This document shows positions 1-64,000 of a DNA stretch of 64,000 nt, piece after piece. The translations under genes were made by a program, and so were the position numbers. Under the pieces are notes generated by a model. The model searched no databases and was not told where the DNA came from. It saw nothing but the letters and a program-made list of their open reading frames with translations. Position 1 is the first letter of the stretch. Each line of letters starts with the position of its first letter. Origin of the DNA: Tribonema minus (Eukaryota; Sar; Xanthophyceae; Tribonematales; Tribonemataceae); the NCBI GenBank assembly GCA_017506865.1, contig JAFCMP010000047.1, forward strand, positions 62,001 through 126,000. The letters run 5' to 3'.

Positions 1-794
1 CAGGAGATCATCATCAAGATCAAGGGCGACGTGCACATGCAGGTGCGTCACTTCAACTGCAGCAGTATACTTCAATTAAGAACCTAAAGCATGGAGCTCA
101 TACCAGTCGCGTTCACATTTATACAAGCATGGGCTATGCCACATTGCGCATGGTGCATTCTCAACGAAAGTCACTGCAGCGCCATTAGCTTGGCATTGCT
201 CACTGGCTGGGTAGGCCTTGCATCCCCATCAGCGCTTCATTGTGATTTCCTGCTTAGAGCCTCTCTTGGCAGGTGGCAGCTCCAGACTACATTAGTACGG
301 GGATTTGCACTTGAGCGCCGACTTCAATGCTTACCTTTCCCACAGCACACCTCAAGTCAGCTGCTTCGAGCAACAGCATGGCGGCAGATTTCGTCTGTGT
401 CAATCCATCCAGCTGCAGCAGTATCAATGACTGGCAGAGGTGTGTCCAACACTCAACTCAGTCCCATCATTGTTGCCTAACAACATGTTTATGGACAACA
501 AGGCAATGAGTATGAATGTGTCAGCGTAGCAGTAGATCTAGCTTGTCATTACTACGGCGTGATGAACACACTTCAAGTATATAATTTGATCTCCGAGCCC
601 ACCTGTTGACATTCTGTTCTGCTGGTGCGTCAACCGCAACTTCGCAGATCGACGGCGAGCCCTGGAAGCAGGCAGCGACGACCGTTCATATCAAGCGCTA
701 CGGGCAGTCGACGTGCCTCATACCGCGCAAGCACGCGCCCAAGGCATCGGAAGATCACCACGGCCACGCCTTCGGCCAGCACACGCCTGTATAG
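1..794 (+). CDS. Diacylglycerol kinase, C-terminal end (partial, 5' end outside window)
   Basis: Two exons: 1-42 and 648-794, joined in phase 0 across a GTGCGT...CAG intron; the stop TAG is at 792-794. The joined protein reads ...GDVHMQ|IDGEPWKQ and goes on to a GQST(C)L block. The QIDGEPW signature followed by a GQ-x-x-hydrophobic-L stretch is the hallmark of the end of the diacylglycerol kinase accessory domain (DAGKa), which packs on the catalytic domain of enzymes that phosphorylate diacylglycerol to phosphatidic acid. Only the last 62 residues are in the window, so the catalytic domain and any C1 or EF-hand regions cannot be seen. The short His-rich tail after the domain (EDHHGHAFGQH) is family-atypical. 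The family call rests on the signature motif; which DGK class it is cannot be said. Confidence 0.72.
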
Positions 795-1816
795 GGTTGG
801 TCTAGGGTCAGCGCGCTCGGCGCAGGCATAGACCCCCATTGGTGGCCTGTAGCAGCCCGACGATCAGGGGCGAGCTCAATGCCTAGCCCTAGCCCTAAGA
901 ACGCGCGCCCGCAGGCCAGCTCCGCACGTGCGAGCATGTCAAGGCAAGAGGCTGGTGAAGACCCTGAGGGGCAATGCCGCCGCTCGTGCTCGGGACAGAG
1001 CGGCGAGCTTGTGCTGCTGTGCCAACTTGAAGTCTTGTGCAGAGTGCGGTACGCTCTCTGGCGTGAAAGTCCAGGTGCTGGCTCAACAACAGCTGCGTCT
1101 GTCGTGTGATGGTGGCACAAGGTTGCAGGTGGCACAGTTGCTGTGGATGGAGCCGTGCGCGCACACTTCAACATGGAAGTTTTCGCCCGGTGCGCTGCGG
1201 AGAAATGCGCAGCGTGCACGCTCCCAGATCGCCCCAACACCTTGGGATGTTATTGTGCTGTTGAGAAGTGGTGAATGATGCATGTTCCCCCCCCGTGGCG
1301 GCAGCACTGTAGTAGCAGCGGCAATCGCTGGAGTCCGGCTGCGCAGACCCTTGCAGAACAATTTTGAGCAGCATGTTGCTTTCCTCATGCAGTCTATACA
1401 GAACATGGCACATTCCCCCCCAAATATGACGCCCGTCCGTGATCGCTCTTCCAGGTCATCCTAGTGTGTTGCGTGTTGCCAGGCCAATGGTCATAGCACA
1501 CATTGCTGTTTGGTCAGGCACCAGATTTTGATCCCATGTATTTGCTCACCTTGCCTTGGCGCCATGATTCGCATGTGCTGGCTCTGCAGCTACACAGAAG
1601 TGAGAAGTCATGGATGGCCTAGAGAGCCTTACTGCCGATAAATTTTTGCTGTCTGTTCTGATTGTCGTTAGTGCGCGCTTCCTTGACAGCTTTGCGCCTT
1701 GGTGAGGTCAGATTTCTAGCAGAGCTTTTGTGTTCAACTTCAAGAATTTCAGGAGGGAGACTCTCCCACTGGAGGTTCTCAGTGTTTTGTAGGTTGCTTG
1801 CTTGCCTAGTGATAAT
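795..1816. other. Intergenic spacer between DGK and MOCS2B
   Basis: About 1 kb with no convincing exon. It should hold the DGK 3' UTR and the MOCS2B promoter and 5' UTR. Short open frames on both strands (for example an antisense frame at 1619-1885 across the MOCS2B start) lack family motifs or a splice-consistent context. Confidence 0.5.
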
Positions 1817-4275
1817 ATGCCCGAGGGAGCCGGCAACAGTCCACAAGATCAGAGCAGCAGCAGCGCCACAGCCACTAGCCCTCATGATCTTGTGATGGTG
1901 ACAGATCAGCCTCTCGAGCTGAGCGCCATGGTGGCAGCAGTAGCAGGCCCGAAGTGTGGCGCCATCTCAACATTTCTTGGCGTCACTAGAGACACGCATA
2001 ATGGCAAGACAGTAGTGCGACTGGAGTACGAGGGCTACGCGCCAATGGCAGAGAAGGAGCTCAGGAAAATCTGCGAGCAGGCGAGGTGAGCTCTGCTTGC
2101 CGAAACAACAGAGGCAGCTGCTGCTGAGATGGGGCTTGCATCCGCATCAAAGATGCATACGTGTGGCAAAGGGCACTGTAAAACAGCAAGATGCCTTTGG
2201 AGCACCCTTACTGCAACTTGGGGTGCATCGCCGGGTGCATGTATATCACGTTATCATGACAAGTATTAGCGTCAGCCGTAAAGATACTTGCAGCTGCTGT
2301 GACCCTTACTCCTATGCCATCAACTGCACTGGGACCTTCATGCAGCAGTTCGAGCAATGCGTATCCTCAAGCAGTACGATTGCAGCCGACTGCTAAACGC
2401 CCTCCGTCACGATGCTGCTGACGATCCAGAGCCAGCACCCATTGGTTGTAGGGCGAGCAGTGCTGCACCTTCTGGCTGCCTCTTGACAGTGATAATTACT
2501 CCAGGCACATCACCACTTCTTCTGCGTTCTCGCTAGTTGAACCTGATTCTCTGTGGCAACGCCCTGGCAGTGCCTCTGGCAGATGTATGTTTCTGCACAA
2601 CGCTCGTCCCTGCTTGCAGTCGCAGGTGCTCAGCGGTAACGTGGGCATGCTCGCTGCCCAACTGCACCGTACCGCCGCGCATGCGGGCGAGATATTACAT
2701 CTGTGTGTACATGCACAATCATTGCTGTAGTCATCTTCGACAGGTTGGTATACATCTCCTGCACCCATACATACTTACCACCTGCCTCGGCCAGCGCTGG
2801 CAGTCTCACCGTGATTGCACGCTGCTGTCACTGCTGCCGCAGGCAAAAGTGGAGCATCGAAAAGATAGCCATTGCGCATAGGCTGGGTGTGACGGCGGTT
2901 GAGGAGGCGAGCGTGATAATTGCGGTTTCGTCGGTGCACAGGAGGGAGAGCCTGGAGGCGGTGCAGTACTGCATTGACACGCTCAAGGCGACAGTGCCCA
3001 TATGGTATGTATGTATGTATGGTGCATTGACATGCTCAAGGCGACAGTGCCCATATGGTATGTATGTATGTATGGTGCATCGACACGCTCAAGGCGACAG
3101 TGCCCATATGGTATGTATGTATGTATGGTGCATCGACACGCTCAAGGCGACAGTGCCCATATGGCATGTATGTATGTATGGTGCATTGACACGCTCAAGG
3201 CGACAGTGCCCATATGGCATGTATGTATGTATGGTGCATTGACACGCTCAAGGCGACAGTGCCCATATGGTATGTATGTATGGTATATGCACAGCACTGC
3301 TCAACCCATACAAATTTATGTATCGTACTTCGACGTATGTGTGTAATGCGCAGATACGCTGATAGCGACGGTGCCCACATGTAAAGCGACAGTACCCATA
3401 TAGCAAGCGCAGAGGACTACAGTGTAGCCACGAAGGGCATATAGAAGTAGACGCATACACGACTGAGCAGCTAGCTAGGCATGGCGGCTAGACATGAGGC
3501 GAGAGGCGTGTCATGTCAGCGCTCAACTTAATGTTCTCTTTGCTGTGTGTATACGGCGCTGAGCCACGGGCAATGGTGGCGAACTGCTCCAGGATAAAGT
3601 GGCAGAGGTCAACACGTGTCAGACTGGCGTCAGCTTGCTTTCATCCTGGCAGGCCGTAGACAGAGGACGAAAGGCGACTGAGGCGTGAGCACAACACAGC
3701 AGTTTTACCTCACCTCAGTGCTCTAACAAGCGCAATGTGGACGTCATGAATGGCATGTCTCAGCAGACTAGCATCGTAGCTTGTAAGCTTTGCGGCATGT
3801 GAAATGTCTCCATGGATAACAGCAGTGCCTTGAATAATGCTGATGCAGCATTGTTGGAACGTAGGCAGTTCAGTCAGGAATACGTATGCTCGCATCTATG
3901 ACAGGCAGCAATCAATGCACTTCAGGTGAAGTGGGCTTCAGAGCACAACACAACAACTGGCTTGCACACAGGAAGGACTGCCAGCCCACCATCTCACACC
4001 AATTATGTGTTTGTACTTTACTCATGCGTGTCTGGCATTGAGAGGCAAACTTAGCAGAACATCGAAGCAGCTGCATGCCCTGGAATCGTGAGGCGTTGCA
4101 GTTGCACAAGTGTGTGGCAGCAGGGGCAGCGCAAGGCGCACCTTGTGAAGTTGGCAGCGCTCATATACGTCTAATAGCACCTTCAGCCATACCGCAATGG
4201 GCCCGTGACTCTGTTTGCGCATGCTACCACCGTTACCTCCTTCTAGAGCAACAGCGCTGACAATCCGCGTGTTTT

Positions 4276-4307
<32 letters not shown>

Positions 4308-6880: not shown

Positions 6881-9800
6881 TCACTTGGGCTTGGCGGACA
6901 TGAAGCCTGATGTTGTGTCGAACCACTTGGCGTTGGCGGCCTTGACCTTGGCCTCTTTGTCCGCATTAGGGTTGACAAGCTCTATGCCCTGTGAAATGCG
7001 GTACAGTGACACGATGAATGAAAGATGGGCAATCCGAAAGAGTTCCACACTGCAGTTGGTGTACCACCGCAACTTGCTCTTGAAAGGGGTTGAGGCGAAA
7101 CCTGGCGCGCATCAAGTTGCAAGTGCGCTTAGCCTGACCATAACCTTAGCACACAAAACATCATAGCGGGTCTGAGAGGGTGTCAAACGCAGCAGGATCA
7201 GGTGAACACGTCACCTGACAACCTCAACAACTGCTCGCCGCACCTGCGCCAACATTGCATGTGCGTACATAGCATAACGACACGCGCACATGCACGTGCG
7301 TATTATGTTGCGCGAATATACCGGCAACAAAAGCACAAAATATGAGTACTGGCATACATCTACATACTGCCACACAATCATTAATGAAGTATACACACAC
7401 ACCACACAAACACAGCGTTCCACTATACCAACATACCTGCACGGGCGTGAAGATGATACTTGAAGACAGCCCGTTGGTGTTGCCAGAGGACACGGCCGCC
7501 ATGCGCAGCTTCTTTGCCACACCAAGCTGCTGCGTCTTCTTCTGCGCCGGCGCGCGCATGCGGTTGCCCGCCTTGCCGAGCATGCCAAAATCGCGCCCCT
7601 GTTGAGCAATGGGTGTTCAGTGATGGCGGAGGAGAGTCAATGAGTCAGAGTCATACAATGCGCGGTTGCCCGCCTTGCCCAGCATGCCAAAATCGCGCCC
7701 CTGTTGAGCAATGGGTGTTCGGTGATGGCGGAAAGAGTCAATGAGTCAGAGTCATACAATGCGCGGTTGCCCGCCTTGCCGAGCATGCCAAAGTGGCGCC
7801 CCTAGTGAGCAATGGGTGTTCAGTGATGGCGGAGAAGAGTCAATGAGTCAAAGTCATTAGATGCGTCACCAATGCGCTCGTGCAGTGGGCAGGAATTTTG
7901 ACATCATGACTACAGCACGGTTCGAGAAATGTTACTTCAAAACATGCATTCCATCACCGTCAACAGCATCGCTTGGTCGCCAGCAGCACATGCGTCAGCG
8001 AACCATGCATGCTCGTGCCCAAGTAGAATACCGTAGGAAACGGATTATAATACCCCCCCCTTGTAGAAGACCCCCCCTTTGTATAAGACCCCCACTTTGT
8101 ATAAGACCCCCCCGTCTTGTTGTTTTGTGCTTCTCGTTGCTAAGACAGGGGCCACTTTGTATAAGACCCCCCCTCTTATAAGCTGATGCAGATGATCAGA
8201 GACCAGACAAGATGGAGTGCTATAAATAACATAAATGCTTGCGGCTAACCATCCTTTGTTACCTAAAGCTCTACGACCTTTTAATTCGTTTCTATAAATG
8301 TTGTCTCCTGAACCTTTTTCGATCAAGCCAAATTGCAAGTTTAACCAATTTGTTGTTGAAGTTCGTGGCGCACGGTTCACGTACCTGTAGTGGCCTGTGC
8401 TGATACTTGCATGCGCTCCCAGCGCAGCGAGCTCTGAGTAACGCGCAGCTATGGCATATGTTGTGCTGTGCGCTTGCTGCGCACAGCCTAGCCAGGCTAG
8501 GGAGCAGCCCTGAATCTGGGTACGTTCGGTGTGCTGAATGCCTCAATTGTGCTGCACGATGCTGCAGATATACGTGAAAACCAGAAGGCTGGTGTTCCCA
8601 CCATCACGATGGTTTAATTGACCAGCAGATGAGGCTATCGCTGCTTGCTCCAGAGCGCAACTTAAGTACTTCGAAGTAGATAAATTTGCCGAGGACGGGG
8701 GGGTCTTGTCAACACGAGGCTTGGAATGATGCTAAGACAGGGGGAACTCTGTATAAGAGGGGCTACTTTGTATAGTACCCCCCCGTCTTAGCAACAAGGG
8801 CGTGAAACTGCAAGACGGGGGGGTATTATAATCCATTTCCTACAGTACAGAGAACATCCTGCCAAACTTTCTTCATTACCAAATCATATTGCAGAGAGCG
8901 ACAGTGGCTGACTGACACACGTGTCTTCCTCTACATTTGAACCACACTTCTTCAGCCTGAGAGCACTATAGTGGCTGCTTTGTTTTCACGATTGCGAACC
9001 CGCAGCAGCGGTGCAACACATCTACATGTGCACTCAAGCACATTCTGCGCCGTGCGGACAGCACATAGAGAGTAGTGATGTCTTACACCTACACAAGGCA
9101 ACAACTCGCGCTTTGTGATGGTGAGGTTTCTAATGACATGGACGATGCATACGTACCATCGCACTGTCGCCGTACTCGTACGCCTGACTTGCAAACCCCA
9201 TCTTGTTCTGCTCCTTCTGTATGTCCGTCAGCGTGAACTTCTCCTTCAGCCGCCGCACCCTCTTGCCTCCGCGCTTTGATTTTGGTGCCTCATCGGGCTT
9301 CGGCAGCGCGCGCTTGATCTTGGCCTGATCCGGTTCTTGCCACTTTTCAAGCTGCAGTTTGAGGCAGTAGTCAGAAACGACCGTGTTGCTGTCAGAGGCT
9401 GACACTAGCATGGGTTGCAGCAGCCAAGTACAGAAAAGCACGCAGTAATCACTCTGTGCGGAGGGTGAGGTATCATACTTCAAATATGCATGCGCGTCAT
9501 TTGCCTTCACAAAGCGGTTACAGTGACGTATGGATCAATCTGCCTTGACAAAGCGGTGACAGAGCTATATGGAAGTGCCCAACACCGACATTGGACCAGC
9601 AGATTCCTATGTGTGCATCGCACGCCCTGCCCGTATACGCATCATTCAGTGCAGCAATTGTTGCCCATTTGCCAACAAATTGGCCCCAAAGCTCTGGCTC
9701 GCATCAACGCCACCTGTTCACCTGCCAACTTTATGTGCAGCAGTTTTCGCTGAAAGACACACAAGTTTCGCTGAAAGACACACAAAGCCAGGTGCAGCAG

Positions 9801-13158: not shown

Positions 13159-15352
13159 ATGAATTTCACGCCAATCCCTGTGTTGTGCTGTGCCTCAAGC
13201 AGGCGCTCCACCTACAGGCGTAGGAGTGGGGGCGGCTACATGGGACGCCAGTTGCGGGCGCGATGCTCACCACTTGCGGCCCTCGCGCAGGTGGCGCTTC
13301 TCCAGTGGCTGCTGGTCCTATGCCAAGGCTTCGCCTTGATATCCCCTAAGCTTCACCGCCCCGTGCACAGCCGATCGCCGGCCTGTCCCCAATCAGAATT
13401 TGCCAGGACTCTTCGGCCAGCGTTGCATATGGTGGGCAACACGCCAGAGCTGTCATCGCCGCAGCCGACCACCGTGAAAATACCCACCAAAGTGGCGGTT
13501 GTGGGGAGGCCCCAGATCCGCGTCGAGAAAGAGTACTCCATCGACACCATCCTTAAGGAGCTCGCCGAGATTCAGAGGCAGGGGCCCAAGAACTACTGCA
13601 TCCTGGGCACGCGGCACTGCTCTTTTTTGCACCAGCAGATCATAGAGCTGCTCGCCTATGCTCTGGTGCTCAGCGGCAACCACGTGTTCACTTCTGGGGC
13701 GGGGGGGACCAATGCGGCCACGATTCGGGGGGCGCTGCGGGCGGAGCGGCCGGATCTGCTTACGGTGGTGCTGCCGCAGAGCCTGGCGAAGCAGAGCGAT
13801 GAAAGCCAGGAGCTGCTGACTCAGGTGCGCACACGGTGTTTGGCATGAGTGCTGACAGTGCCCCGTTGTTGGTACAAGCAGCGCCGCGCGGACCTGCGTA
13901 ATCCGTGCTTTGGGACTGCCAGTATCAGTGTTTCTGCGTTTGATGCTGTGCTTCAGGCATTGGATTCCTGTTGTCAGTATCAGTGCTGCTCTCAGCGCTG
14001 CTGTGTGCGACACATGACCCACAACAGTCACAGAGGTAGCACGCTAAGGTTGAGGATTGCATGTGACTTGCCAACTTGTAATCTGGCAGGTTGCCATGCA
14101 CAATGTAGCCATCCGCAGCCTTCTCCACTGTGTGCTCACTGCCGTGCGTCGATGCATTTCCGTATGCTGGGGCGACCAACTGCACGATGGGTGACATACA
14201 TAACCCTAATGATCCTAACCCTCTCGCGCGCACTAACAATGAAAATCAGGTATGACGCTGCACACGTATACAAAGGCCGCCTGCAGTTGAGCACTGTCGC
14301 AGTAATACCTATCAGTAATATCTATCAGAGGTTCTACCAGTATATCAACTACCTAGTCAGTTTTAAAGTCACAGAAAAATGTGCGGCAGAAGTGCACAGT
14401 CTCTGAGCTGCGCTCAACAATAGTTGCCCTGTTGCGCACGGCTTCATCTAGCATGAACTTCAAGTGGGCAGTTGATTCACCTATTGAGTGCCCTTGCAGC
14501 GCACTACGGTCTGTATACAAGCTGGAATTTGCGTCTTCATGGAGCCCTGCGCAACTTCATCACTTGAACTTTCACTTCAACTTTTGGCATATCGGGGCGT
14601 GTCGTGCGGCGCAAAGAAACAGGTAATCGCTCGCTGTGCCACACAGCGACCGCTCCACTTTTCAATGTGGCCTCACGGCCTAGCAGCAGCAGCCTGTCAT
14701 TTGCTGACACCATCCGCTGGGTGTGCCGCTTGCTTGGTCACCAATCTGGTGTGGCCGCTGCCTGAGGCCACACGAGACCCGCACTGCACACACGTATGCG
14801 ACGTCGTGAATGCACTATACATCAAAACTTGGCCACAGGACATGCCTCTGCACCCGGCCTTGCGGCTGCTCGCTGTCCAACTGCACTCGAAACGACCTTG
14901 ATTACAACTAACGCTAACCCTTGTACCCCCAACCACTGCCCCTCTACCCGTCAAACCTGCCTGGCCCTGACTTCACACCGAGTCTCCAGTACCTCTCCTC
15001 ATTGCTCCACCCGCTTCCCCCCCCCCCCGCCCCCCTCAGGTGCAAAACGTGATCGACGCGTCCCTGACCTTAAACCTGTCTCAATCACCTCACCTCATTG
15101 CTCCACCCCTTAAACGCCCCCCCCCGCCCCCCTCAGGTTCAAAACGTGATCGACGCGCCGCAGAACGACCACCTCCCCCTGGACGTCGCCTCGCGGCTCT
15201 GCAACAGCGACCTGCTGTCGCGCGCGGACCAGCTCATCTGCTTTGCCTTCCACGACTCGCACACCATCATCGAGACGGCGCGCGAGGCGCGCGCGCTCGA
15301 CATGATCGTCACGGAGCTATTCCTAGACAGGGGCGGCCCTGTCGATGAGTAG
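13159..15352 (+). CDS. DprA/LOG-like Rossmann protein of cyanobacterial/plastid type, with targeting leader
   Basis: Two exons: 13159-13824 and 15137-15352, phase 0, 293 aa. The core has VEKEYSIDTILKELAEIQRQ, YCILGTRHCSFLHQQIIELL, the glycine-rich GNHVFTSGAGGTNAATIRGA with RAERPDLLTVVLPQSL, and CFAFHDSHTIIETAREAR. These match the conserved protein of cyanobacteria and plant plastids annotated as 'DNA recombination-mediator protein A-like', related to the DprA/LOG nucleotide-binding fold; the biochemical role is not established. The first 65 residues are non-conserved: a basic segment, a hydrophobic stretch (LAALAQVALLQWLLVLCQGFA) and a Ser/Pro/His/Arg-rich part, consistent with a plastid-targeting leader. 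The start could be 13159 or the ATG at 13240. The exon 2 acceptor edge is duplicated upstream at about 15000-15060. Confidence 0.85.
15000..15160 (+). repeat. Duplicated acceptor edge of DprA-like exon 2
   Basis: The stretch CATTGCTCCACCC, poly-C, CCTCAGGT-x-CAAAACGTGATCGACGCG occurs twice, ending near 15059 and 15157. The second copy joins the exon. The first keeps a complete poly-C tract and CAG acceptor but then runs into intron sequence. Confidence 0.9.
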
Positions 15353-52632: not shown

Positions 52633-55600
52633 ATGCGCCGTCGAAGACAAGCGGGTCTGAGGGGATGCTGCTGTGGTTGCGCGCGTTTACTGCTCGTTTC
52701 ATTGCTACATACAACAAGCGCCTGGAAGGAGTGGCAGAACAATGGCTACACAAACTCATCGTGGGCCAGCCTGTGGAACAAGACGGAGGGCCCGGGAGGG
52801 AGAAGCGGGCACAGCCTTGTTCTGTTTGACGGGGGAAACACCGTGGTGATGTTTGGGGGGAGGGACAATGACAGAACGCGTCGGCATGTGCCCCACACCT
52901 ATGAGGTGACCAGGGTGGACGGCACACTGGAGTTCGTCAGCTACGATGAGAAACCCGTCATCGAGTGCCAGGTGGGCAGAATTGCTGTACGGTACTTACC
53001 CATCTCTTGTGAGGGCAATCAGGGCCGAATCTGGAGAAAGATGAACATGTGATACTAGTTCGATGGCGTCGTTCAAACGAGCCAGACATGCAGAACGTCT
53101 ATTGTAGTATCAGAGTGCTGCTCTCAAGCGATTAAATGTCGCGGCCAGCAATTGCTTCCTGTCAACTTGCAACAACGGCTCGCTCCGTCTGATTTACAAA
53201 AAATACCTGTCAACTTGCAGCAATGGCTCACTCCGTTTGATGCACAACTCCAGACGGTGACTTGACAAGTGCGTAATGTCTGTCAAAACATGTTGCGTGA
53301 ACCACATCAAATCGGGCAAAGTACTTCACCAGGCTGGCTGACTGGTTGCGGTCGCTGCTCATTGCACAACATGCAGCTCTAGTACGCACTTTCGACTGTT
53401 GGAGCCAGCAGCAGCATTCCACCATACCATATCCGTCAACAAGTGTCAATCCGATGCAACCCAGCAATGCCTGTCAAGACGCATGACACAACCGACACAT
53501 GGGGCGGGAGCTGAAACAGCTGCCTTTTTCAATGGTGGTTATGCAAAGCAGCGCATTTTGGCTGCACATTTTGAGCCTGGAAGTCAGGAGGCGGGTGCCT
53601 TGTCCAATGACGACTTGCTCATTCATTGGTCAAGGGCGCGGTTGCGCTGAAGTGCGCTTGAGCGCATAGACGACCACGTGTTCTACTGCAGAGTTGATCA
53701 GCGCGCACTGACACTCGCGCATACACGAGCCTACATGCATTCAGCGAGCATGCAGGTGGTGGCGTGAGAGGGCGTCTTTGTGAATGAATGCAAAGGACGC
53801 ATCGCGCGGTTTGAATGCGCCACGCGGCTGCTGCCACTTAACCCTCATCTCAACTCTAACTTCAAACCCTTGCTTGCGGCGCCCGACACTTTTGCTCACC
53901 TTCAAACACTTTAACGCGTGCTGTTTCGTGCACACAGGAGGACCTGATCAATGCGGGGAACACCAGCTCTGGCTCATGCTCTCTGGAGGTGCCCGTGGGC
54001 CTGTACTACAACGATGTGTGGGCGTACAATTTGACGTGCAAGAGGCCGGACGACTCTGACCCGTGTCCCAACGACGGCTGGAAGCTACTGCACGAAGGTG
54101 CGTGGTGGCTCCGAAAAGTACTAAACGCTGGTGTACGTAGACTAGGTATGAGAACGTTTGTCAAAAAAAAATCACAAGAAAATGGAGTTTGAGCAGTCTC
54201 TACATAGCGCTGCTTGTTGTAATTCGCGCACACTCTTCAACAATCATCTTATACGCACATGGCACATGGACAGTAGCAATTGAGTTGAGTTTTTGGAAGT
54301 GAGAGCATGGGTCTACAGCCACGTGACCAAGCATTGGTACGAACCAGCATCATTGGAGTTGTAACCCGCACATAACATCCGTTGCATGCAGTGCTACAGC
54401 AACTGCACTGGCGTGGATGAAATACGCGTGTGCGCCTTGCTTATGTCCATTTACTTCTAGTGTGGACTCCCCTACGTGGGGTAGCCAGAGTGCCGCCATT
54501 AATCAATTGAAACAACTCTATGTTCTGTTGTCAATTTTCGCTCAGTGCGCAATTACGTCCAGATCCTTGCGGTTAGAATGAGCGTTAGTAGGGTTAGGCA
54601 CATGCGTATCCCCTCGTCAATCACTGATTTCCTCACGAGTGACCCTCGACCCACATCCTACCATCATACCAATTGTCTGTCTGGCAGGGGCGCGCCTGGG
54701 CGGCTGCAAGTTCTACAGGGGACTTGAAGTTTGCAGCACGCCCGGCGAGCGCTGGGGCCAGGGGGCAGCCGCATTCGACGACGGCACCATGCTGATATAC
54801 GGGGGGTACAGCCACCGCTGCGGGGACTACTGCGATGACATGTGGGCCTTTGATTTGCGGCGGGGAAAGTATGCCAACACGTGGATGGAGATCTACGAGC
54901 CGGGACACTTCAGCGCCGGTGAGTTTATGTTAACTTCAACTGTGACTCAAGCTTAAAATGGAGGGTGTTCATCAATGCTGTGTATGCATTGGTAGGTATT
55001 TTACATACAGAGATGGGCTGTGAGCTGCAGGAGCCGCTTGCTCTCATCCTGACCCTGACGCGTATCATTTGCGTTTTGTCCAAAACTTGAAGGAGAAGTT
55101 GCAGTAAGGGCCATGCCTGCACGCGTCAAGTCTTCCACGCTGTAATGAGTGCTGACGTCATCATGCATAGGTGGCATGTAGGACAATGAGGTAGCTGAAG
55201 CGCAGGCTTTGAGGCCATGGCAGTTCTTGAAGACGAGGCTCGCTCGCGGTAGTTTGTTTGCAGTTGCTTTGGTGGGCATGTGGTTCATCGCGGTGGCAGC
55301 TTCTGTTGTTGATCATAAGCGGTGCCGTGCCTCATACCAACCGCTCGTGGAACCGCTGCTGCCGCTCACCGACATTCAGAACCTACGTACAATACAAAGC
55401 CGCCAACCACATCTGCGCACACTTGCTTGGCGAGCGCAGTCGCCCCTTACTGCACTGCCCCATGAACTCACCTGACATCGCATCTGCTAATACACTCCGT
55501 GCACAGACACCGGGCCCGGAAAACGCTGGAAATTTAGCGTGGCGAGTGACGGCGCGCGCATGTTTATATTTGGGGGTCACCGCCTGTGGCAGGGATTTGC

Positions 55601-58600
55601 GTCCGACAACTCTCAGGACAACGACTGGAACAGCACCGCGCTGCTGCCCGCCGGAGGGTATCTGAGCGATCTGTGGATCTACACAAAGAGACAGGTGCGG
55701 CGTGAGGCGGCAGTGCTGCCTGCCCTTATACGTCTAGGGTTACAATTAGTTTGCGTCCGACAACTCTCTGGACAACGACTGGACCAGCGCAGTGCTCTGG
55801 GCAACGACTGGAACAGCACTGCGCTGCTGCTCGCCGGAGGCTACCTCAGCGATCTGTGGATTTCGCAAAGAGACAGGTGCAGGGGGGGTGCAGCATGAGG
55901 CGCCAGTGCTGGCTGCCCTTGTGCGGTTAGGGTTAGGGTTAGGGTTATGGAGACGGGTGAGGCATGAGGCATCAGTGCTGCCCCCCCTTGTACGGTCAGG
56001 GTTAGTATTAGGTTAGGGTAAGGGTTGAGGGTTGAAGTCAGCATGCTGCAGGCGTCACTGCGGGTTATCTTCACAATTGACTGGCTTTGACAGTTCAGAA
56101 ACCTGAGAATGAACGTAATCACAATCACTATTGAGGATTTAGAGATTTGAGGTTCTCGCCCTAAGAAATCCCATTGCATCACTGAGTCGACGGCCTGAGC
56201 CCATGCCTACCCGTACCCTCACCCCCCTAAATTGAACCCTATGGCTGATGGCAACACTAATTTCGCAGCTGATGAGCCCACGCCGACCCTAACCCTACTA
56301 CTCTGGGGCCGATGTCAGTTGCCAGCTGTCATAACCCTACTCTGATAGCATTGCTTAATGGGCAGCCCGAACCCATGCAGCCTCAATCCTACTGTAACCC
56401 CACCCCGAACGCGTTCAAGCCCTATTTCTAACCCTAACCCTAACCCTAGTCTGATGGCATTACTCAGCTGGCAGCCGGTGAGCCCGTGCCAACCCCAATC
56501 CTAGCCCTAACACTCACCCCAACCCTGACCACATGATGGCATCGCTCTTGGCTGCCAGCACCTATACCAGCCCCCTGTATAATCCTAGCACGCCTGAGCC
56601 CGTGCCAGCCCTACTTTTTAAACGTTAACCCTAACATATTTCCAATGGCATTGCTCAGCTGGTAGCCGGCGAGCCCGTGCCGACGGATAGCAGCGACTAC
56701 GGCAACTTCCGCTAACCCTAACCCTAACCCTCACTCTGATACTAACCCTACTCTGGTGACATTGCTCAGCTAATAGCCGGTGATCCCGTGCCGACAGACA
56801 GCAGCGACTACGGCAACGTTCTCTAACCCTACATACCTCAATTCTGATGGCATTGCTCAGCTCGTAGCCGGCGAGCCCATCCTTTTAACCGCAGCCCTAC
56901 TTGTAGCCTGAGCCCGTGCCTGGCCTAGCATCAGCTTGACCCTAATCCTATCTGTTAGCCCTAACTCTAATGCAACTCTGATGGCATTGCTCAGTTGACA
57001 GCCGGCGAGCCCGTGCCCACGGACAGCAGCGACTACGGCAACTTCACGCGCGCCGCAGAGCTGCAGGACTGCGTCGTGGAGCCCGGCGAGGCGTGGGCGG
57101 ATCGGAGCGATGTCACCTGCAGCCTGGTGCGCGCTGCTGCTTTGCCTCATTGTTTGAGAACAGCAGTGGTATGAATAACAAGAAGGTCGAAGCAATGTCA
57201 TGTCTAGCTTGGGGAGCACTGCTGCTTGCCTTGGTGTCTGAAGTTAGAAAGACGGGAAAGTGCGCATGCGCGATTGAACCGGTTGAGGCGTGGACAAATC
57301 GGCGCGATGTTGATGTTCCCTGCAGCTTGATGAGCGCTGCTGCTTGCCTCGATGGTCCTTGCAATTGACGTACGCGACGTGCACGTGAATGTGATGCATT
57401 CATCGCTATACGGCAGCGCGAACATGCCCGCTTCTAATGCCGGGCAGCAGCGCTCAACAAGCCGCTGCGGCTCAAGCCTCTTCTCTCGCATTGTCAATGG
57501 AAACGAATCAAAAGATCGTAGAGCTCTAGGTGACAAAGGATGGTTAGCCGCAAGTGCCTTCCACCAATAACCGTGGTCGCCGCTGCTGCAGTCATTGCTG
57601 CGCCTTGCCTCGGTGTCTGGACATGGGCATGCGGACAGTGCATGTCAATCTCCAACGCAGCTGACATGGTCGACTCTCCGCGTTCTCCCTTCCACTTCTA
57701 CCTTATTAGGCATGGCCATCGCCTCGAGCCGGCCACCAGATGGTCTGGGACGCCGAGCGCCAGGGCCTCTGGGTGCATGGCGGCTATACCACGTATTTCC
57801 CCTATATTGACACAAACGGCGCTGGCAGCGGCTTGGGCGTAGGGGTAAGTTCGAGAACTTAAGGTTGGGATTAGGGCAAGGGTTTGGGTTAGGTTAGGGT
57901 TGCGGCGCAGCGACACAGCCACAGTACTTGAAGTTTGAAGTGTGAATGACATCTTTGATTTGTGCGCGCATCAGAGATGGCACGTTAACTTGTTGCACCG
58001 GTACGAGTACAAGTTTTTGTACCGGTTTTAACCCGTAACCGGTGGCCCGCTGCGCCACACGCGTTAACCGGTACGTGTAACTTGCCGTGGGAGGCAGCGC
58101 GTAAACACCCATTGGTCCCCAGCTGATAACTTGCGGTACAAGTTCAATGCCTGTTCCGCTTTATTCTGTCGGTGCTCGTAGTTTTGCCGAGGGAATATCG
58201 TGATGGTTGGTAGTAGCGACCAATGACACGAGCGATGTTTGCCACTTCTGTACGATTGAGCAGCTCGAAAAGGCCTTCTAGCTTTGAGCAGGGCAAGGTC
58301 AGAATTCGTGAAACTATGTGTAGCGACCCACGCACGATCAGCTGCCTGCAGAACACAGGTGCCGACAGCAAGCAGTGCTGCACGGCACGAGGCTTTCAGC
58401 TTGATGCGTTCACTTCGTGAGTCATTTGTAGAGGACACGCTGTGCGTGCATGCTGCTGTTGTGACGTGTGTGCCGCATGCTATGCATATCATGCAAATTA
58501 CAATTTTGTGACATTCGCGTGCAAATACGTGCCCACCTCTTACGCCTTCACACACATGCCAGTTGTGAGCAAGTACATGAGCATACTATGACGTTTGCAT

Positions 58601-61600
58601 GACACGAATACTGGTAGTCCTTTCAAACAACTGGTGCAGCTGGTGAAAACTTGTTGAACCAGTAACAACCGGTGCAACAAGTATATGGGTACCGGTTGGC
58701 ACAGCTCACCAGTTAAATTTGTACGGGTAGCCACAGCTACAAGTTTTGGAATACTCGTACGCGTACTTGTCAGAAATGTTCTCGCGCTACGCGCGACCGG
58801 TGCAGAGATGGCACTACGCGCCATCTCTGGCGCGCATGCGTGGCGCGTGTATTGCTATATACTTGGATATGCAGTTGTGTAAGCGTGTACCGCTGAGCAT
58901 CATCGCGGCCTGTGATGTGAGTCCATGGAGCGAGAAAGATGCATCGACTTGCCAGTTGTTGAGACCAGTCATTGATACGCCCCTCTGCTTGATGTGTTCT
59001 CTTCGATCTGTGCTCCTGCCCCAGTGATGCTTCACTGCTCTCGTGCCTCCCCTCACTCTGCCCTTCCGTCTGCGTTCACTCGTGCTTGATTTGATCTCTC
59101 AAACCCGTGCTCCTTCTCTACTTGGTCCCCGTTTCACTCCTTGTTAGCGCAGCCACTTGTCCCTTCGCTGCTCCGTCCTTCAGCCTGAGTTGAATTCAAA
59201 CTTGCAGCGCTTGCGCTCTAGTACCTGCCCATTCATATATGGCATCCCCTCTTCTGCGGAGCGTTAAGTCCAGGTTCAAGGCCAGACCTAGTTCATGTTC
59301 AGGTTGATGACTACATTGGGCTAGTACTTCTCTTCTGTAATCCCGTATTTCCCCACCCCTCCCGTCGCTGTGCCATTCGCTCCCCTCAGGCCAAGGCAGG
59401 CTTCAGCGAGTTTTGGCCTTGTACGCCTCGCCATTTCACTCCTCTCTTTCACCCCCACTCTTCCCTTCGCCTACTACATGCTCCCCGCAAACCAAGGGGG
59501 GGCCTCAGTAATTCTCTGCCTTACCCAAACCCCATGCCCCCCCCCCCCCCTCTTGATTCCCATTCCCCCCTTCCTTTCCCCCCTTCGCTGTGCTGTTCGC
59601 TTGCCTCAGACAAAGGAAGGCCTCAGTGAGTTTCGACCTTACCCAAACCCCATACCTTTACCCCCCCCCCTCTTTATTCCCACTCCCCCCTTCCCTTCCC
59701 CCCTTTGCTGTCCCATTCGCTTGCCTCAGACCAAGGAAGGCCTCAGCGAATTTCGACCCTACCCAGACCACCCCTTCTTTTTATCGGACCTGTGGTTCTA
59801 CGACCTTAGCAGCGGGCGCTGGTCGCAGATACAGCCCGCATCAGTGGCACCGCCCGCGCGCATGGACCATTCCATGGTCAAGGTGCGCTGACCCTAACCC
59901 TAGATTTGGCGAGATATGCATGCTGCGTTCAGCACCCCCTGCTCCTCTGCTGCTGCTCTTGGGAGCAAAATCAACAACCATAAAAATGTAATCATCTACC
60001 TGTATGTTGATGAGGATTTATTAGGTCAATATTTTCTTGTTCCTTTTTCTATTTTTTCTTTGTGTCCAACATTTGAATATGTTGTGACTGTTGACAGGGC
60101 CAGCTGTGTCCGGCGACACTGCGCAACGCTGGTGACGATGTGATGCCGCAGCTCAGACCTGTGTCTAGGGTTACTTCAAGAAGTACTTGGGGCGGAGGTC
60201 GGATGCGTAGTGTGATGATGTGGCGCTGTGCAGCGCAGCGTTGGAGGTAGGGCTGGGGTTTGCACTAGGGCTTGAGCTAGGGTTAGGCTTAGTTAGAAGG
60301 GGCGCATGCAGCACGCTTGCCTGCAATGTGCGCCCACATGCCTGTGCAACTTTGCTGCTCAGGCCCAGTGGTGATGCGGAGCTTGGTTGAAGCTCGGAGC
60401 ACTCAGTAGGGGCAGTGAATTATGCTGTGTCACATGAAAACGATTCAACAGCCCGTAGTGCTCTAGGTGACCAGGAGTGGTCAGCCGCAAGTGTTGCATA
60501 TACAGTAGCTCTATCCTCGCTGGTGCCTGAGTCAAGTTTGCTTACGCTCGTTTGAAACTGCTACAAACTCATTGCATGCTGGCGTGCTGTTCTTCATGCA
60601 CCAGTTTATGTGCGGCGATCAGGACAGCCCCCGCTGGCACCATTAGCGCAGAAACTCTGTGCACACAGGACACGCATACAAACAGTGCGTCAGCGATCCT
60701 GCCATGTACCCGTTCTGCACTCCAGTTGGCGGACGGTTCAGTAATTGTGGCCACTGCCACTATGGCAACAGACCATAGTGAACCCCCATCTTGTATTCTT
60801 AATGAAACATGAACTCATCATGTGCCCACTCTGTAGTCAGTGGGCAGACGCTCTGATTTTGATAGGGGGCTGCCACGACACCAACCACTGTTTCATTTTC
60901 GAATTGTACACATGTGCATCAGTGAACTCACGATGTACACATTGTGTACTCCAGGTGACGGATGCTCTGGCGATAATGGGCGGCTACCACGACCACTTTT
61001 TCAGTTAACAAGTGCAGGTGCAGCATGACGACCACCACTGTTGCTGAAGTAGTACAGATGTGCGTCAGTGAACTCACAGTGTACATGACGTGTACTCCAG
61101 GTGGCGGACGCTCTGGTGATCATGGGTGGCTACCTCGACAACCACCACTACGATGACACGTGGCAGTTCAACATCACTACGCGCAAGTGGCGCCAGCGCA
61201 CCGAGTTTGTGTACCCCGAGTACCCCGACTCGTGCACTGACGACCTCGCCTACATACAGGCAAGTCACACTTGTACTTGAAAGTACGCCAGGCGCACCTG
61301 AGTACAATGATGTTGAATGCATGTAGTATATGCCTCTCTGAGCTTTGGACCATAACTGCTACCCCGACTCGTGCACTGACGACCTCGCCTACATTTGAGT
61401 GATGTCAAATGTCTCTATGCCTCTCTGAGCTGCGGGCCATAATCGGCATGTGTATGTATGTATATGAATGACAGTGGGATTGCATGCATGGGTTCACCTG
61501 CGAACCACTGCGCTGATGCTGATGTCGCCTGCACAAGTACTTCATAGAAGCAAGCATTAACTTCCAGGTGTCATTATTGCAAGTATTTGAGTGCGGCGCG

Positions 61601-63791
61601 TCACACCGAGTCGCACTCACGAGTACTTGGGACTCACTACAGGCGCCAGGCAAGCGCAGCCTACCTGTCACGCAGCAAGGCCTCACCGCGACAGGCGTCA
61701 AGGCCGCCAGGCGCAAGAGCTGCTTAAACTTGCACATATGCCCCCCCCCCCCTCCCCTGCCCCCCTTACAGGCCCCCCTTCTGTCACCCTTAGGCGCAGC
61801 TCATTCACTCAAAGCTCTCTACTCAACGCAGCGCTCATCCCCTTCCCCCTTCCCTTCCTAATATACCTCTCCCCCTCCCACCTTCCCTTCGTCTGCCCCC
61901 CCCCCCCCCGCCCCCCCCTTCCCCTCCCCGTGTCTCCTCCCCCCCCCCCCCCTGCTCAGGCGCACGCGGCCGAGTGCGTGGAGCTGCAGTGGCCGAGCGA
62001 TCTCCATCGCAGCGCTAAGGCGCCATGGGGTGTACTTCCATATGCGGAGCAAGACTACTTCTACTACAATGGCAGCGGCGCCACCGACTACGGTGTGCTG
62101 ACGCCGGAGCAGGTGGCACTCGCGGCGAAGGAGCGCCCGGCGGAGATTGCCGATGGCACGCCTCAGGTGCGGCAGCGCTCCATAGTGTGTGAACTTCAGC
62201 TAAAGTTGAGGCAATGCTTGCACGAACCTTTGCAAGCGGCCTCTCATTGCGCATGCTTTGAGGTTCGTGATGACGAAGGTGGCGCTCGCGTCGACAAAGC
62301 GCCCCGCGGAGATTGCCGATGGCACGCCTCAGGTGCGGCAGGGCAGGGGCTCCATGTTGTGCCGATATCCAGTGTTGACGCTTATGCTGTGGCCTTGGCA
62401 GAGTTGTTGAAGTTTGTGGTGGCACGCCGGAGCAGGTCGCGCTCGCGGCGACGGAGCGCCCAGCGGAGATTGAGAATGGCACGCCTCAGGTGCGGCAGCA
62501 GCACGCCTTGTGTGGTGCCTACTTCCAGTGTTGATGTTGGTGCAGTGCTTGTGGTGAAGTCCCGTGATGGCTCACGAGAGCAGGTGGTGAGCTGCGCTCC
62601 TGCGTGTGTGTTCTTCAGAAGTGCTTTCTTAGCATTGATTGGGCCGGCGCTGTGCGCAGAGCTGTCCACCGATGGTGCGCAATGGCACAGGGCAGCGCAA
62701 TACAGCCGCATATTACATCTTCATGTCGGAACTGCGCACGACTTGTGTCGCTGAGTGCTGGGACACAAAAGTCACTGGCACGGCCCGCACTGTGGCGGGG
62801 CCATGACCCAAGATCCCCCGCAACAACCGCGTTCACCCCCCCACGCAACCACATCACTAACCCTAACCCTAACCCTAAGCGCCCCCCACCACACTTGACA
62901 GGTGTAGTCGGAGCATGGCAGTCACCACAACGGACGCCCGTCAGTTGAAATGGCGTACATTAAGTGTACCAACGTACTTCGAAGAATTATCAGCCCCTGC
63001 AACCGCATTTCAATGCTCGCGCGGCAGCCACCACAACAGATGCCCATCAATTGACATATTACATGAAGTGTGCACACCAATATATCAGCCCCTGCAAACG
63101 CATTTCAACGCTCAATCGGCAGCCACCACAACAGACGATCATCAATTGAAATTTCAGACGAAGTTACCAATTTTTGTCAGCCCCCTGCAATCAAATTTCA
63201 AATTTCACCCCCCCCCCCCCCCTCCCCCCCCCCATTGCAGGTCCCCTACGCCGCCACGGGCCTGCGGCAGTACGTGCGGCCCTTCTCCTTCAGCCCCGAC
63301 TGGGCTAAGGGCAAGGCCGTGACACTGAGCGAGAGGTGCACCAGCGTATTCGGCGAACCCACGCGCGGCAAGCCGCTGGATGGTCTGAACGGGCGCGCCT
63401 CGGACCCCGTGCTCATCGCTCAGCCACGGTGCGTCACCTACTTCGTGCTGAACCTGACGCTGTAGGCAGGCCCCGATTTTTGTTTTTGTTGCAATGCAGC
63501 GGACGCACGGCAAACGCACTTGCGCACAGCACGCTAGTATTGTGGTGAGACGCTGATTAGCCTGAATGAGCGGGCCTCGGACCCCGTGCTCATGGCTCAG
63601 CCACGGTGCGTCACCTACTTCAAGGTGAAGTGTACCAGTGAGGCCGTGTTGTGCATGGCACGCCTGCGTCTCTGTGCGTGAATGGCCTGAACGGGGGCGC
63701 CTCGGACGCCGTGCTCATCGCTCAGCCACGGTGCGTCACTTACTACTTCAAGTAGAAGTGTACCGGGCACGGCTGGTCGGCCTCGATGATG

Positions 63792-63842
<51 letters not shown>

Positions 63843-64000
63843 CGCGTGGCTTGTGCACAGCGAGCTAGCATTGCAGCAAGCCGCTGACGGCCTGAACGGG
63901 CGCGCCGCGGACCCCGTGCTCATCGCTCAGCCACGGTGCGTCACCCACTTCAAGTTGAAGTGTACCATAATGGGGGGGCCATGTTGTGCATGGCACGCCT
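52633..64000 (+). CDS. Secreted or membrane kelch-repeat protein (attractin-like), 3' end outside window
   Basis: Ten exons seen: 52633-52971, 53938-54097, 54688-54918, 55507-55694, 56995-57126, 57710-57844, 59730-59882, 61101-61259, 61960-62166 and 63241-63428, giving at least 630 aa. All phases agree. The N-terminus is a signal peptide (RARs then CARLLLVSLLHTTSA). Kelch-type blades follow: GRSGHSLVLFDGGNTVVMFG, YYNDVWAYNL, RWGQGAAAFDDGTMLIYGGY with DDMWAFDL, ARMFIFGGHRLW with YLSDLWIY, AGHQMVWDAERQGLWVHGGY, FLSDLWFYDLSSGRWSQIQP, ALVIMGGYLDNHHYDDTWQF. Cysteines and N-x-S/T sites suit an extracellular beta-propeller; ligand unknown. Intron 8 has a perfect GC donor (CAG|GCAAGT). Exon 10 could end at TAG 63465 as a terminal exon, but duplicated edges point to a donor at 63429, with the gene running on. 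Confidence 0.88.
55750..55890 (+). repeat. Fossil copy of the kelch exon 4 donor edge
   Basis: TTGCGTCCGACAACTCTCTG, GACAACGACTGGA, then GGCAACGACTGGAACAGCAC, GCCGGAGGCTACCTCAGCGA, AAAGAGACAGGTGC: the last 115 or so bases of exon 4 with its donor (true copy 55585-55700), with an internal doubling of CAACGACTGGA(A/C)CAGC. Confidence 0.92.
55920..55950 (+). repeat. TTAGGG telomere-type block in kelch intron 4
   Basis: GGTTAGGGTTAGGGTTAGGG, one of several; CCCTAA blocks of the opposite orientation are at about 56425-56450 and 56713-56735 in the same intron. Confidence 0.87.
56260..56994 (+). repeat. Array of fossil copies of the kelch exon 5 acceptor edge with CCCTAA blocks
   Basis: The unit 'GATGGCATTGCTCAG + (C/T)TG-x-(C/T)AGCCGG(C/T)GAGCCCGTGCC' recurs near 56340-56380 (decayed), 56455-56495, 56645-56715, 56757-56825 and 56845-56880, with a weak first copy near 56265-56290. 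Two copies include GACAGCAGCGACTACGGCAA. Many are followed by CCCTAACCCTAA. The true edge is at 56980-57050. Confidence 0.9.
57280..57350 (+). repeat. Fossil copy of the kelch exon 5 donor edge
   Basis: GAGGCGTGGACAAATCGGCG, CGATGTTGATGTTCCCTGCAG, CTTG then ATGAGCGCTGCTGCTTGCC copies the exon 5 end and the start of the intron (true copy 57088-57150); the donor GT has changed to AT. Confidence 0.85.
57490..57570 (+). repeat. Dispersed 80-base repeat family, copy 7 (best preserved)
   Basis: TTGTCAATGGAAACGAATCA, AAAGATCGTAGAGCTCTAGG, TGACAAAGGATGGTTAGCCG, CAAGTGCCTTCCACCAATAA. It serves as reference for the family; in kelch intron 5. Confidence 0.82.
57972..58829. mobile_element. Non-autonomous hAT-type element with 8-base target duplication
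   Basis: Both ends are CAGAGATGGC(A/G)CGT in inverted orientation, and both are flanked by the perfect direct repeat GCGCGCAT (57964-57971 and 58830-58837). An 8-base duplication with TIRs starting CAGAGATGG is the hallmark of hAT transposons. ACCGGT occurs four times near the left end (57997, 58021, 58038, 58067) and three times near the right (58668, 58691, 58796) and not in the middle, like subterminal transposase-binding repeats. The right TIR is itself part of a small palindrome. No transposase frame exists in 858 bases. It sits in kelch intron 6. Confidence 0.88.
59365..59655 (+). repeat. Three fossil copies of the kelch exon 7 acceptor edge
   Basis: TTCGCT(C/T)GCCTCAG + ACCAAGGAAGGCCTCAGYGA + ATTTCGACCTTACCC copies occur at about 59368-59415, 59478-59530 and 59588-59650 before the true edge at 59712-59770 (TKEGLSEFRPYPD). 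Spacing is about 110-120 bases and the poly-C tract is copied each time. Confidence 0.93.
60432..60500 (+). repeat. Dispersed 80-base repeat family, copy 8
   Basis: ATGAAAACGATTCAACAGCC, CGTAGTGCTCTAGGTGACCA, GGAGTGGTCAGCCGCAAGTG, in kelch intron 7. Confidence 0.75.
60835..61010 (+). repeat. Two fossil copies of the kelch exon 8 acceptor edge
   Basis: CAG-TGGGCAGACGCTCTGAT, GGGGGCTGCCACGACACCAA (60838-60890) and CCAGGTGACGGATGCTCTGG, GGCGGCTACCACGACCACTT (60952-61005) copy the true exon start at 61095-61150 (VADALVIMGGYLDNHH). The intron stretch GTGCATCAGTGAACTCAC-TGTACA is duplicated with it. Confidence 0.92.
61355..61400 (+). repeat. Fossil copy of the kelch exon 8 donor edge
   Basis: CTACCCCGACTCGTGCACTG, ACGACCTCGCCTACAT repeats the exon end (YPDSCTDDLAYI; true copy 61220-61262). 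The GC donor itself is lost in the copy. Confidence 0.92.
61740..61957 (+). repeat. Pyrimidine-rich (poly-C) tract at the kelch exon 9 acceptor
   Basis: More than 200 bases of almost pure C and T with several runs of 9-14 C lead to CTGCTCAG. It opens a spurious proline-rich reading frame across the acceptor. Confidence 0.85.
62275..62510 (+). repeat. Two fossil copies of the kelch exon 9 donor edge
   Basis: GCGCCC(A/C)GCGGAGATTG, CC/AGA(A/T)GGCACGCCTCAGGTGCGGCAG recurs at 62280-62345 and 62405-62500; the true edge is 62105-62175 (PEQVALAAKERPAEIADGTPQ). Confidence 0.93.
63208..63240 (+). repeat. Poly-C tract at the kelch exon 10 acceptor
   Basis: Runs of C broken by one T, ending CCCATTGCAG before exon 10. 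Confidence 0.85.
63560..63965 (+). repeat. Three fossil copies of the kelch exon 10 donor edge
   Basis: CTGAACGGGCGCGCCTCGGA, CCCCGTGCTCATCGCTCAGC, CACG|GTGCGTCACC plus ACTTCAAG occurs at 63568-63632, 63685-63752 and 63889-63962; the true edge is 63390-63440. Each copy keeps GTGCGT intact. Confidence 0.93.
63796..63840. repeat. (GT)n microsatellite
   Basis: About 22 uninterrupted GT units lie between the second and third fossil copies of the kelch exon 10 edge. Confidence 0.95.

Follow-up and report, generated by a model that had tools for sequence, protein, structure and literature searches.

Many exons of a 64,000-nt stretch of the Tribonema minus (Xanthophyceae) genome appear to be accompanied, in the adjoining intron, by further copies of their own edge and splice site. 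This raises the question of what makes such copies, and why the genes tolerate them. The window (assembly GCA_017506865.1, contig JAFCMP010000047.1, positions 62,001-126,000, forward strand) is the whole stretch that was analysed; for seven of its genes a first-pass annotation had claimed about 31 such edges. We counted an edge as matching when a copy of its 45 edge bases in its own adjoining intron scored at least 18, used 100 dinucleotide shuffles per edge as the null, and checked gene models against homologues. A Pfam scan of translated frames, complete in six frames for 1-15 kb and for 35-50 kb and covering some frames in the rest of the window, located P5CS, kelch, PRP31, MoaE and G3BP, and a multi-gene protein query returned PRP31 and P0195 alone. 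In Rfam, a 5S rRNA was the sole match. Four 10-kb pieces of T. minus were also taken at arbitrary positions.

The P5CS gene, all 14 exons of which align in the homologues P0002, P0003 and P0005, has a copy in its own intron at 12 of 26 internal edges at a score of at least 18, while shuffles reach at most 16 and the other introns of P5CS at most 15. Fifteen edges had been claimed for this gene; two further ones are weak matches (scores 13 and 15). In the kelch/EGF gene, the annotated P0121 model has 15 exons and 12 of 28 edges matching, and once exons 8 and 13 are corrected by homology, the model has 14 exons and 13 of 26. Eight of these 13 edges fall within the window, which is the number originally proposed.

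Single matching edges were correctly reported for PRP31 (1/10 edges), MOCS2B (a clear donor in a 53-bp array) and the DprA-like gene (a clear acceptor copy), the latter two edges being placed by eye. For G3BP, with four edges claimed, both donor copies are clear, as is the upstream copy at the NTF2 exon, whose start is provisional; the RRM acceptor scores 17. The edges of this gene were taken from ab initio prediction. The edge in the low-complexity gene has its repeat pair, on a provisional gene model. Altogether, about 25-27 of the roughly 31 edges were verified at a score of at least 18 (Table 1).

Table 1. Exon-edge copies and related features in the window (positions of the window)
Feature	Position	Strand	Remark
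MOCS2B (MoaE) exon end and donor	2970..3282	+	53-bp array of some six units with 97% similarity; donor set by eye
PRP31 exon 5 (7598-7437) acceptor edge, upstream copies	7437..7865	-	period ~102
DprA-like exon acceptor edge, upstream copy	15020..15164	+	period 97; acceptor placed by eye
Low-complexity ORF edge, tandem pair	18131..18399	-	period 143; gene model provisional
P5CS gene	20797..35051	-	14 exons, all introns GT-AG; exact spliced alignment of T. minus protein P0001
P5CS exons 1-7	35051-34797, 33963-33733, 32869-32729, 32156-31992, 31138-31010, 30357-30289, 29459-29262	-	
P5CS exons 8-14	27983-27910, 27072-26997, 26064-25945, 25046-24843, 24278-24102, 22860-22636, 21054-20797	-	
P5CS exon 2 acceptor edge, upstream copy	33917..34225	-	period 238
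P5CS exon 3 acceptor edge, upstream copy	32804..33184	-	period ~139
P5CS exon 4 donor edge, downstream copies	31679..32058	-	one copy without GT
P5CS exon 5 donor edge, downstream copies	30681..31112	-	period ~155-166
P5CS exon 7 acceptor edge, upstream copy	29434..29801	-	score 18, weakest accepted
P5CS exon 7 donor edge, downstream copies	28775..29313	-	
P5CS intron 8, intron-only tandem duplication	27509..27900	-	period 202; control class
P5CS exon 10 acceptor edge, upstream copy	26022..26275	-	period 141
P5CS exon 10 donor edge, downstream copy	25718..25967	-	period 189
P5CS exon 11 acceptor edge, upstream copy	24998..25242	-	period 122
P5CS exon 12 donor edge, three downstream copies	23666..24134	-	
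P5CS exon 13 acceptor edge, upstream copy	22814..23140	-	period 172
P5CS exon 14 acceptor edge, upstream copies	20991..21712	-	
G3BP NTF2 exon, downstream copy of donor edge and upstream copy of 5' part	38204..38693	+	exon start provisional
G3BP RRM exon donor edge, downstream copy	42939..43174	+	edge ab initio
Kelch/EGF gene (P0121)	52633..64000	+	continues beyond window end, to 68891
Kelch exon 4 donor edge, downstream copies	55612..56014	+	period 183
Kelch exon 5 acceptor edge, upstream copies	56173..57045	+	
Kelch exon 5 donor edge, diverged downstream copy	57070..57350	+	period 197
Kelch exon 7 acceptor edge, upstream copies	59316..59769	+	period 120
Kelch exon 8 acceptor edge, upstream copies	60874..61180	+	period ~146-150
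Kelch exon 8 donor edge (probably the true one), downstream copy	61221..61396	+	exon end 61259, GC donor; period 139
Kelch exon 9 donor edge, downstream copies	62094..62585	+	period 166
Kelch exon 10 donor edge, downstream copies	63365..64000	+	

Over 11 genes with 162 edges (exon-13-corrected kelch model, without the edges of the misannotated kelch exon 13 and the first P0195 "intron", which is a coding repeat), 44 edges match, and among the 16,200 shuffles (100 for each of the 162 edges) not one scored 18 or more. This corrected model also underlies the periods, chi-square, pseudo-edges, GT/AG retention and intron lengths given below, whereas the 101-copy divergence, the frame and strength counts of the decoys and the copy numbers at 49 edges come from the kelch model that predates the exon 13 correction. 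As the first-pass annotation expected, edge copies are found beyond its genes, on other contigs, in CCT8 (8/12 edges), CCT3 (5/16) and a partial CCT5 without its 3' part (4/8). In CCT7 one of 10 edges matches; none does in CCT1 (0/16), in Cpn60 (0/10) or in CCT2 (0/18, with a model that stops at template residue 419 of 475). Seven of the ten chaperonin loci were covered, the others being C279:803k, C544 and C516, and the main bias is that C5, C51 and C135 were picked partly for already overlapping HMM rows: these hint-picked loci have 17/36 matching edges, the four picked without prior hint 1/54. The proposed "genome-wide habit" is too strong a term, because the frequency of matching edges is very uneven among the 11 genes (chi-square p=1e-6) and the unhinted chaperonins are nearly free of copies. 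Among other gene-like regions of C47, 31 of 151 edges from ab initio exon prediction score at least 18, a hint only, since this prediction over-predicts, fires on both strands of one locus and may call edge copies exons.

Periods at the 44 matching edges run from 89 to 710, with 29 of them within 120-210; of the 53-200 initially given, the 53-bp case is the MOCS2B array. Edges with one copy (23/49) are about as frequent as those with more (26/49). Identity of the best copies to their edge is 80-100% (median 0.93), and edge copies continue past the splice site into the intron beside it, with a per-base match of ~0.88 in the exon part versus ~0.82 in the intron part (101 copies). That donor copies always lie downstream and acceptor copies always upstream is true but mere geometry, because whichever copy adjoins the exon body is by definition the used one.

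Most decoy splice sites carried by the copies are intact. Use of an intact decoy would cause a frameshift or an in-frame stop for 39 of 40 donors and 43 of 46 acceptors, and 20 of the 40 donors and 9 of the 46 acceptors equal or exceed the true site in score. Since almost any decoy use would thus damage the reading frame, the protein requires the exon-proximal site, and from the DNA and the conserved protein we infer that it is the site used in RNA. The original proposal of local tandem duplication buffered by splicing is supported. The copies also go with longer introns, as had been suggested: the median length is 515 without a copy (n=45), 843 with copies at one edge (n=28) and 1154 with copies at both (n=8; p=4e-7), and the relation holds within genes (permutation p=0.0006). 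The probable direction is that copies lengthen introns.

The probable explanation is, in our judgement, that some T. minus genes undergo local tandem duplication that is for the most part undirected and is buffered by splicing, probably via exon definition. Segments mostly of 120-210 bp would duplicate in tandem at a high rate in these genes, and exon edges would be favoured mildly at most. A duplication within an intron or across a single splice site would leave the mRNA unchanged because the spliceosome, by exon definition and proximity across the exon, would keep to the site adjoining the exon body, an arrangement that T. minus splicing presumably follows, and duplications of whole exons or exon middles would alter the protein and mostly be lost. 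Surviving copies would decay and make the intron longer. As a guess, the duplications may arise by replication slippage or by break repair with re-copying. In a control, copies of exon middles are far from being as common as edge copies: only 1/19 mid-exon 45-mers in P5CS and 1/26 in kelch match a flanking intron at 18 or more. Tandem-duplication coverage in the introns of these two genes is 0.35-0.59 from the edge to ~325 bp and 0.27-0.41 at 325-400, and is zero more than 100 bp inside exons (just 4 exon sides are that deep). A 129-bp repeat within the coding sequence of P0195 counts against this explanation, since it shows that exon-internal duplication can survive.

Alternatively, duplication could be targeted to exon edges, through transcription- or splicing-coupled breaks or exon-placed nucleosomes, with units near nucleosome length; we regard this as rather unlikely. 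We compared real edges with pseudo-edges, positions inside introns, confining detection to intron sequence for both. P5CS and kelch have 17/52 matching real edges against a pseudo-edge mean of 7.9 (about twofold, P=0.0002), and CCT3 and CCT8 have 8/24 against 8.2, no excess; the four genes pooled give 25/76 against 16.2 (P=0.003). The excess in P5CS and kelch and in the pool goes beyond what a plain uniform model would give, which speaks against largely undirected duplication and for targeting, as does the fullest period bin being 160-180 (17 of 160 binned pairs, 256 kb). However, some excess would arise in any case: there are more pseudo-edge positions in duplicated introns, and introns may at first have been short; short ancestral introns would yield the same excess. 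Targeting also sits poorly with the lack of an excess in the two CCT genes, with the flat coverage into the intron and with intron-only duplication, which is common too.

Selection could keep the copies, either in reserve for splicing or because unproductive splicing at decoys tunes expression. AG is kept in 49 of 51 aligned acceptor decoys versus 161 of 212 other AG of the same exon copies (p=0.0007), so plain decay, as undirected duplication would have it, is insufficient for acceptors; the excess drops to p=0.015 when three unaligned copies are scored as lost, and alignment bias may contribute. Donor decoys decay like neutral sequence, with GT kept in 41 of 49 aligned decoys, as compared with 135 of 174 for GT in exon sequence. 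Since subunits of one complex, CCT8 and CCT1, moreover differ so widely in matching edges, we consider selection improbable.

It is quite improbable that the copies are relics of introns gained when an exon segment containing AGGT was duplicated in tandem (Rogers model): tandem duplications that carry splice signals do occur, but 18 of the 21 donor-edge copies stop no more than 350 bp from the donor instead of abutting the acceptor, and no edge matches the wrong-side intron (0/18 in P5CS, 0/24 in kelch). An assembly or haplotype artefact is very unlikely because the copies diverge, the intron part more than the exon part, instead of being near-identical throughout; the pattern is also found on several contigs, and other genes lack it. 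Transposon-like introners, or some other dispersed repeat family, beside splice sites are likewise very unlikely: two P5CS introns are weakly similar (63%) near their acceptors, but every unit copies its own exon edge, and within P5CS no other intron scores above 15 against it. Chance similarity is ruled out by the shuffles and by the other introns.

A bolder version of splice-buffered duplication, doubtful as a whole, would have two locus states, one in which nucleosome-sized duplication keeps adding edge copies and about doubles intron length, the other silent with short introns. These states would be independent of expression, as the difference among CCT subunits may indicate; splicing would be strictly exon-defined and ignore equal decoys, and decoy acceptors, not donors, would be kept by selection.

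The statement that no named description of such a habit is known is not supported as put, as the pattern is close to internal gene duplication, which Gao and Lynch, whose paper is cited in PMC4974935, reportedly described in 2009, with any such duplication in 8-17% of genes. Both involve local segments, intronic and exonic, duplicated within one gene near their source and often including splice sites and exon sequence; here, however, as many as half of the exon edges or more are affected within individual conserved genes, and the protein is unchanged. Our best reading is that exon-edge copies are an extreme, patchy form of this process. Among the titles and abstract openings searched, we found no earlier description of the exon-edge-copy pattern itself.

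Other systems share parts of it. Intron gain by tandem duplication (Hellsten 2011; PMC4974935; review PMC3443670) likewise reuses splice signals, and potato RdRp is reported to show both such a gain and an intron-internal 83-bp duplication (PMC4974935); in T. minus, by contrast, no new intron or junction was seen and existing introns are longer. New Daphnia introns are described as containing internal direct repeats, ascribed to staggered breaks, and resemble T. minus in intron growth with repeats, but their exon-shared repeats measure 4-12 bp whereas the T. minus spacing is ~50-350 bp and copies span the edge (PMC4202315). An intron length cycle is reported for repeated LRR exons of Tetrahymena (PMC6564038), and a word search of the introner paper PMC9860276 gave no mention of Tribonema. 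Minisatellites and VNTRs form tandem arrays of similar unit length, and the MOCS2B array is one; T. minus, unlike them, mostly has diverged copies in small number, tied to a splice junction that functions. Minigenes and database analysis have led to an exon-centric proximity rule, by which the exon-proximal of equal 5' sites wins under exon definition (PMC9225289); in T. minus, a stramenopile, the series of duplicated sites occurs naturally and is deduced from DNA and protein.

Edge copies are a way to watch introns lengthen, and because each is anchored on a constrained exon, the events can be dated relative to one another. They also amount to natural competitions between near-identical splice sites at many junctions, which bears on exon versus intron definition in a stramenopile, and the contrast among CCT subunits is a starting point on what makes a locus duplicate. 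Edge copies mislead gene prediction as well: the deposited kelch exon 13 appears to be an intronic copy mistaken for an exon.

Tribonema minus is a xanthophyte with a 158 Mb assembly in 554 contigs, and C47 (JAFCMP010000047.1), which carries the window at bases 62001–126000, measures 407,301 bases. Pfam places MOCS2B/MoaE, PRP31, P5CS, G3BP and a kelch gene in the window. Exact spliced alignment of the T. minus P5CS protein (P0001) gave 14 exons with introns of 564–1581 bases, all GT-AG, and every exon aligned in three homologues (P0002, P0003 and P0005). For the kelch gene, comparison with protein P0122 points to two wrong edges in the deposited model (P0121). That model ends exon 8 early, at an internal GT; the true end probably has a GC donor. 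Likewise, an intronic edge copy (a tandem copy of an exon's end together with its splice site and adjacent intron sequence) upstream of conserved exon 13 appears to have been annotated as exon 13 in the deposited protein.

Each exon edge, taken as the first or last 45 coding bases, was compared by alignment with the intron next to it. In P5CS, 12 of 26 edges scored at least 18 (highest 44), as opposed to maxima of 16 for shuffles (100 per edge) and 15 for the other introns of this gene; copies are present as the first-pass annotation claimed, but fewer edges reach this score than the 15 it listed. When flanking sequence was included, alignments ran through the splice site at most matching edges, so that a copy comprises the end of the exon, the splice site and the intron sequence beyond it; this alignment did not resolve the copy at the exon 7 acceptor. 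The kelch gene has copies at 12/28 edges on the deposited model and 13/26 on the corrected one, eight of the latter in the window, exactly the number claimed earlier. PRP31 has one at 1/10 edges; for G3BP, the DprA-like gene and MOCS2B a direct check used edges predicted ab initio or placed by eye. Mid-exon 45-mers, used as a control, matched a flanking intron in 1/19 and 1/26 cases. P5CS introns 3 and 1 resemble each other weakly at their ends (63% over ~247 bp), possibly through a dispersed intronic repeat.

A search for chaperonin exons returned overlapping partial matches beside exons on contigs C5, C51 and C135, and exon edges at seven of the ten chaperonin loci were placed with templates, some of them PDB-derived. 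Copies were found at 8/12 edges in CCT8, 5/16 in CCT3, 4/8 in CCT5 (partial) and 1/10 in CCT7, while 45-base edges of CCT1 (0/16), CCT2 (0/18) and Cpn60 (0/10) had none in their own introns; the gene matched by transcript P0195 had none at 10 edges. Since CCT8, CCT3 and CCT5 were chosen partly on the hint of overlapping matches, their joint 17/36 overstates the general rate, and the 1/54 in the other four chaperonins may understate it. Across all 11 genes, copies accompany 44 edges out of 162, and the genes differ strongly (chi-square p=1e-6). Tandem duplications cover 15% of bases over 256 kb of C47 and, in four arbitrarily placed 10-kb pieces of other contigs, 38% of one and 0, 2 and 8% of the others; one shuffle of each piece yielded none. 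The pattern extends to other contigs but is patchy, as the gene differences and the four copy-poor chaperonins indicate; the proposed genome-wide habit goes too far. CCT subunits form one complex in equal amounts, so expression level is unlikely to decide which genes gather copies, given 8/12 in CCT8 against 0/16 in CCT1; local sequence or chromosomal setting may do so. Two long-ORF regions of C47, resembling mobile elements in ORF pattern only, have little tandem duplication. Over 256 kb of C47, tandem periods cluster at 100–259 (74 of 160 binned pairs); the 160–180 bin is fullest, with 17, and 320–340 shows a smaller rise, with 11, values close to nucleosome spacing.

We consider it likely that local tandem duplication is undirected and buffered by splicing. 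In P5CS and kelch, its coverage is 0.35–0.59 throughout the ~325 intron bases nearest the exon, without peaking at the edge, and 0.27–0.41 at 325–400 bases; inside exons it is 0.11–0.15 at 76–100 bases and zero deeper, where only four exon sides reach. Duplication targeted to exon edges, which we regard as improbable, would account for the excess of real edges over pseudo-edges (control positions inside introns) when intron sequence alone was used on both sides: 17/52 against a mean of 7.9 in P5CS and kelch (P=0.0002), the genes picked in the first-pass annotation, and 25/76 against 16.2 in the four genes pooled (P=0.003). However, CCT3 and CCT8, which had not been so picked, show no excess (8/24 against 8.2). 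Corrected for detectability, edge duplication exceeds intron-only duplication twofold in one pair and not in the other, a mixed outcome for the earlier emphasis on edges. This count makes undirected duplication slightly less likely, and targeting slightly more so, than an earlier version of it did. Undirected duplication would itself be expected to give a factor above one: introns would grow as copies accumulate, diluting the pseudo-edges, and a short ancestral intron would have no room for a 160-base unit unless that unit crossed an edge.

Median intron length rises from 515 bases without edge copies (n=45) to 843 with one edge copied (n=28) and 1154 with both (n=8; p=4e-7), and the trend holds when labels are permuted within genes (p=0.0006, one-sided). 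The steps of ~310–330 bases equal about two units. These medians support the earlier suggestion that introns lengthen from their ends, with copying as the presumed cause.

Among 101 copies, intact decoy donors (splice sites within copies) equal or outscore the true site in 20/40 cases and decoy acceptors in 9/46, and their use would bring a frameshift or stop in 39/40 and 43/46, respectively. Exon-proximal sites must serve for the normal product, because conserved homologues align through the junctions. According to a published rule (PMC9225289), exon definition favours the splice site proximal to the exon, whereas intron definition favours the intron-proximal one. Exon definition would be the natural reading for P5CS, kelch and CCT8, judging from their short exons and introns near 900–1000 bases. 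In the final count of 106 copies, the donor GT is kept in 41/49 aligned copies, as expected from exonic GT (135/174). The acceptor AG is kept in 49/51 aligned copies (54 copies, 11 genes) against 161/212 for exonic AG in the same copies (p=0.0007; p=0.015 when the three unaligned copies count as lost), an excess that could be partly an alignment effect.

Internal gene duplication was reportedly treated by Gao and Lynch in 2009. It is already described, as is intron gain by tandem duplication (PMC4974935, PMC3443670). Titles and abstract beginnings in the literature searched described neither so dense a set of copies within single genes, nor buffering across this many junctions, nor a comparable contrast from gene to gene; the pattern is a variant of known internal duplication in which these three features look new.

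A coding tandem repeat of ~129 bp on C47 seems to differ in copy number from the related transcript P0195. The window also contains a 5S rRNA gene, its sole Rfam match at gathering thresholds, and short telomere-like arrays internal to the contig.

Coordinates of features in the window and on contig C47
Feature	Coordinates	Strand	Reference
Kelch exon 8, probable true end and GC donor	61259; 61259-61261		window
Kelch exon 13 region (conserved exon starting at 67528)	67053-67131 and 67528-67815		window numbering, past window end on C47
Similar ends of P5CS introns 3 and 1	32032-32267, 33836-34072		window
5S rRNA gene	19873-19991	-	window
CCTAAC / TTAGGG arrays	10673-10728, 22477-22512		window
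Coding tandem repeat	221599-222121	-	C47
Long-ORF regions	142000-166500 and 199000-211500		C47
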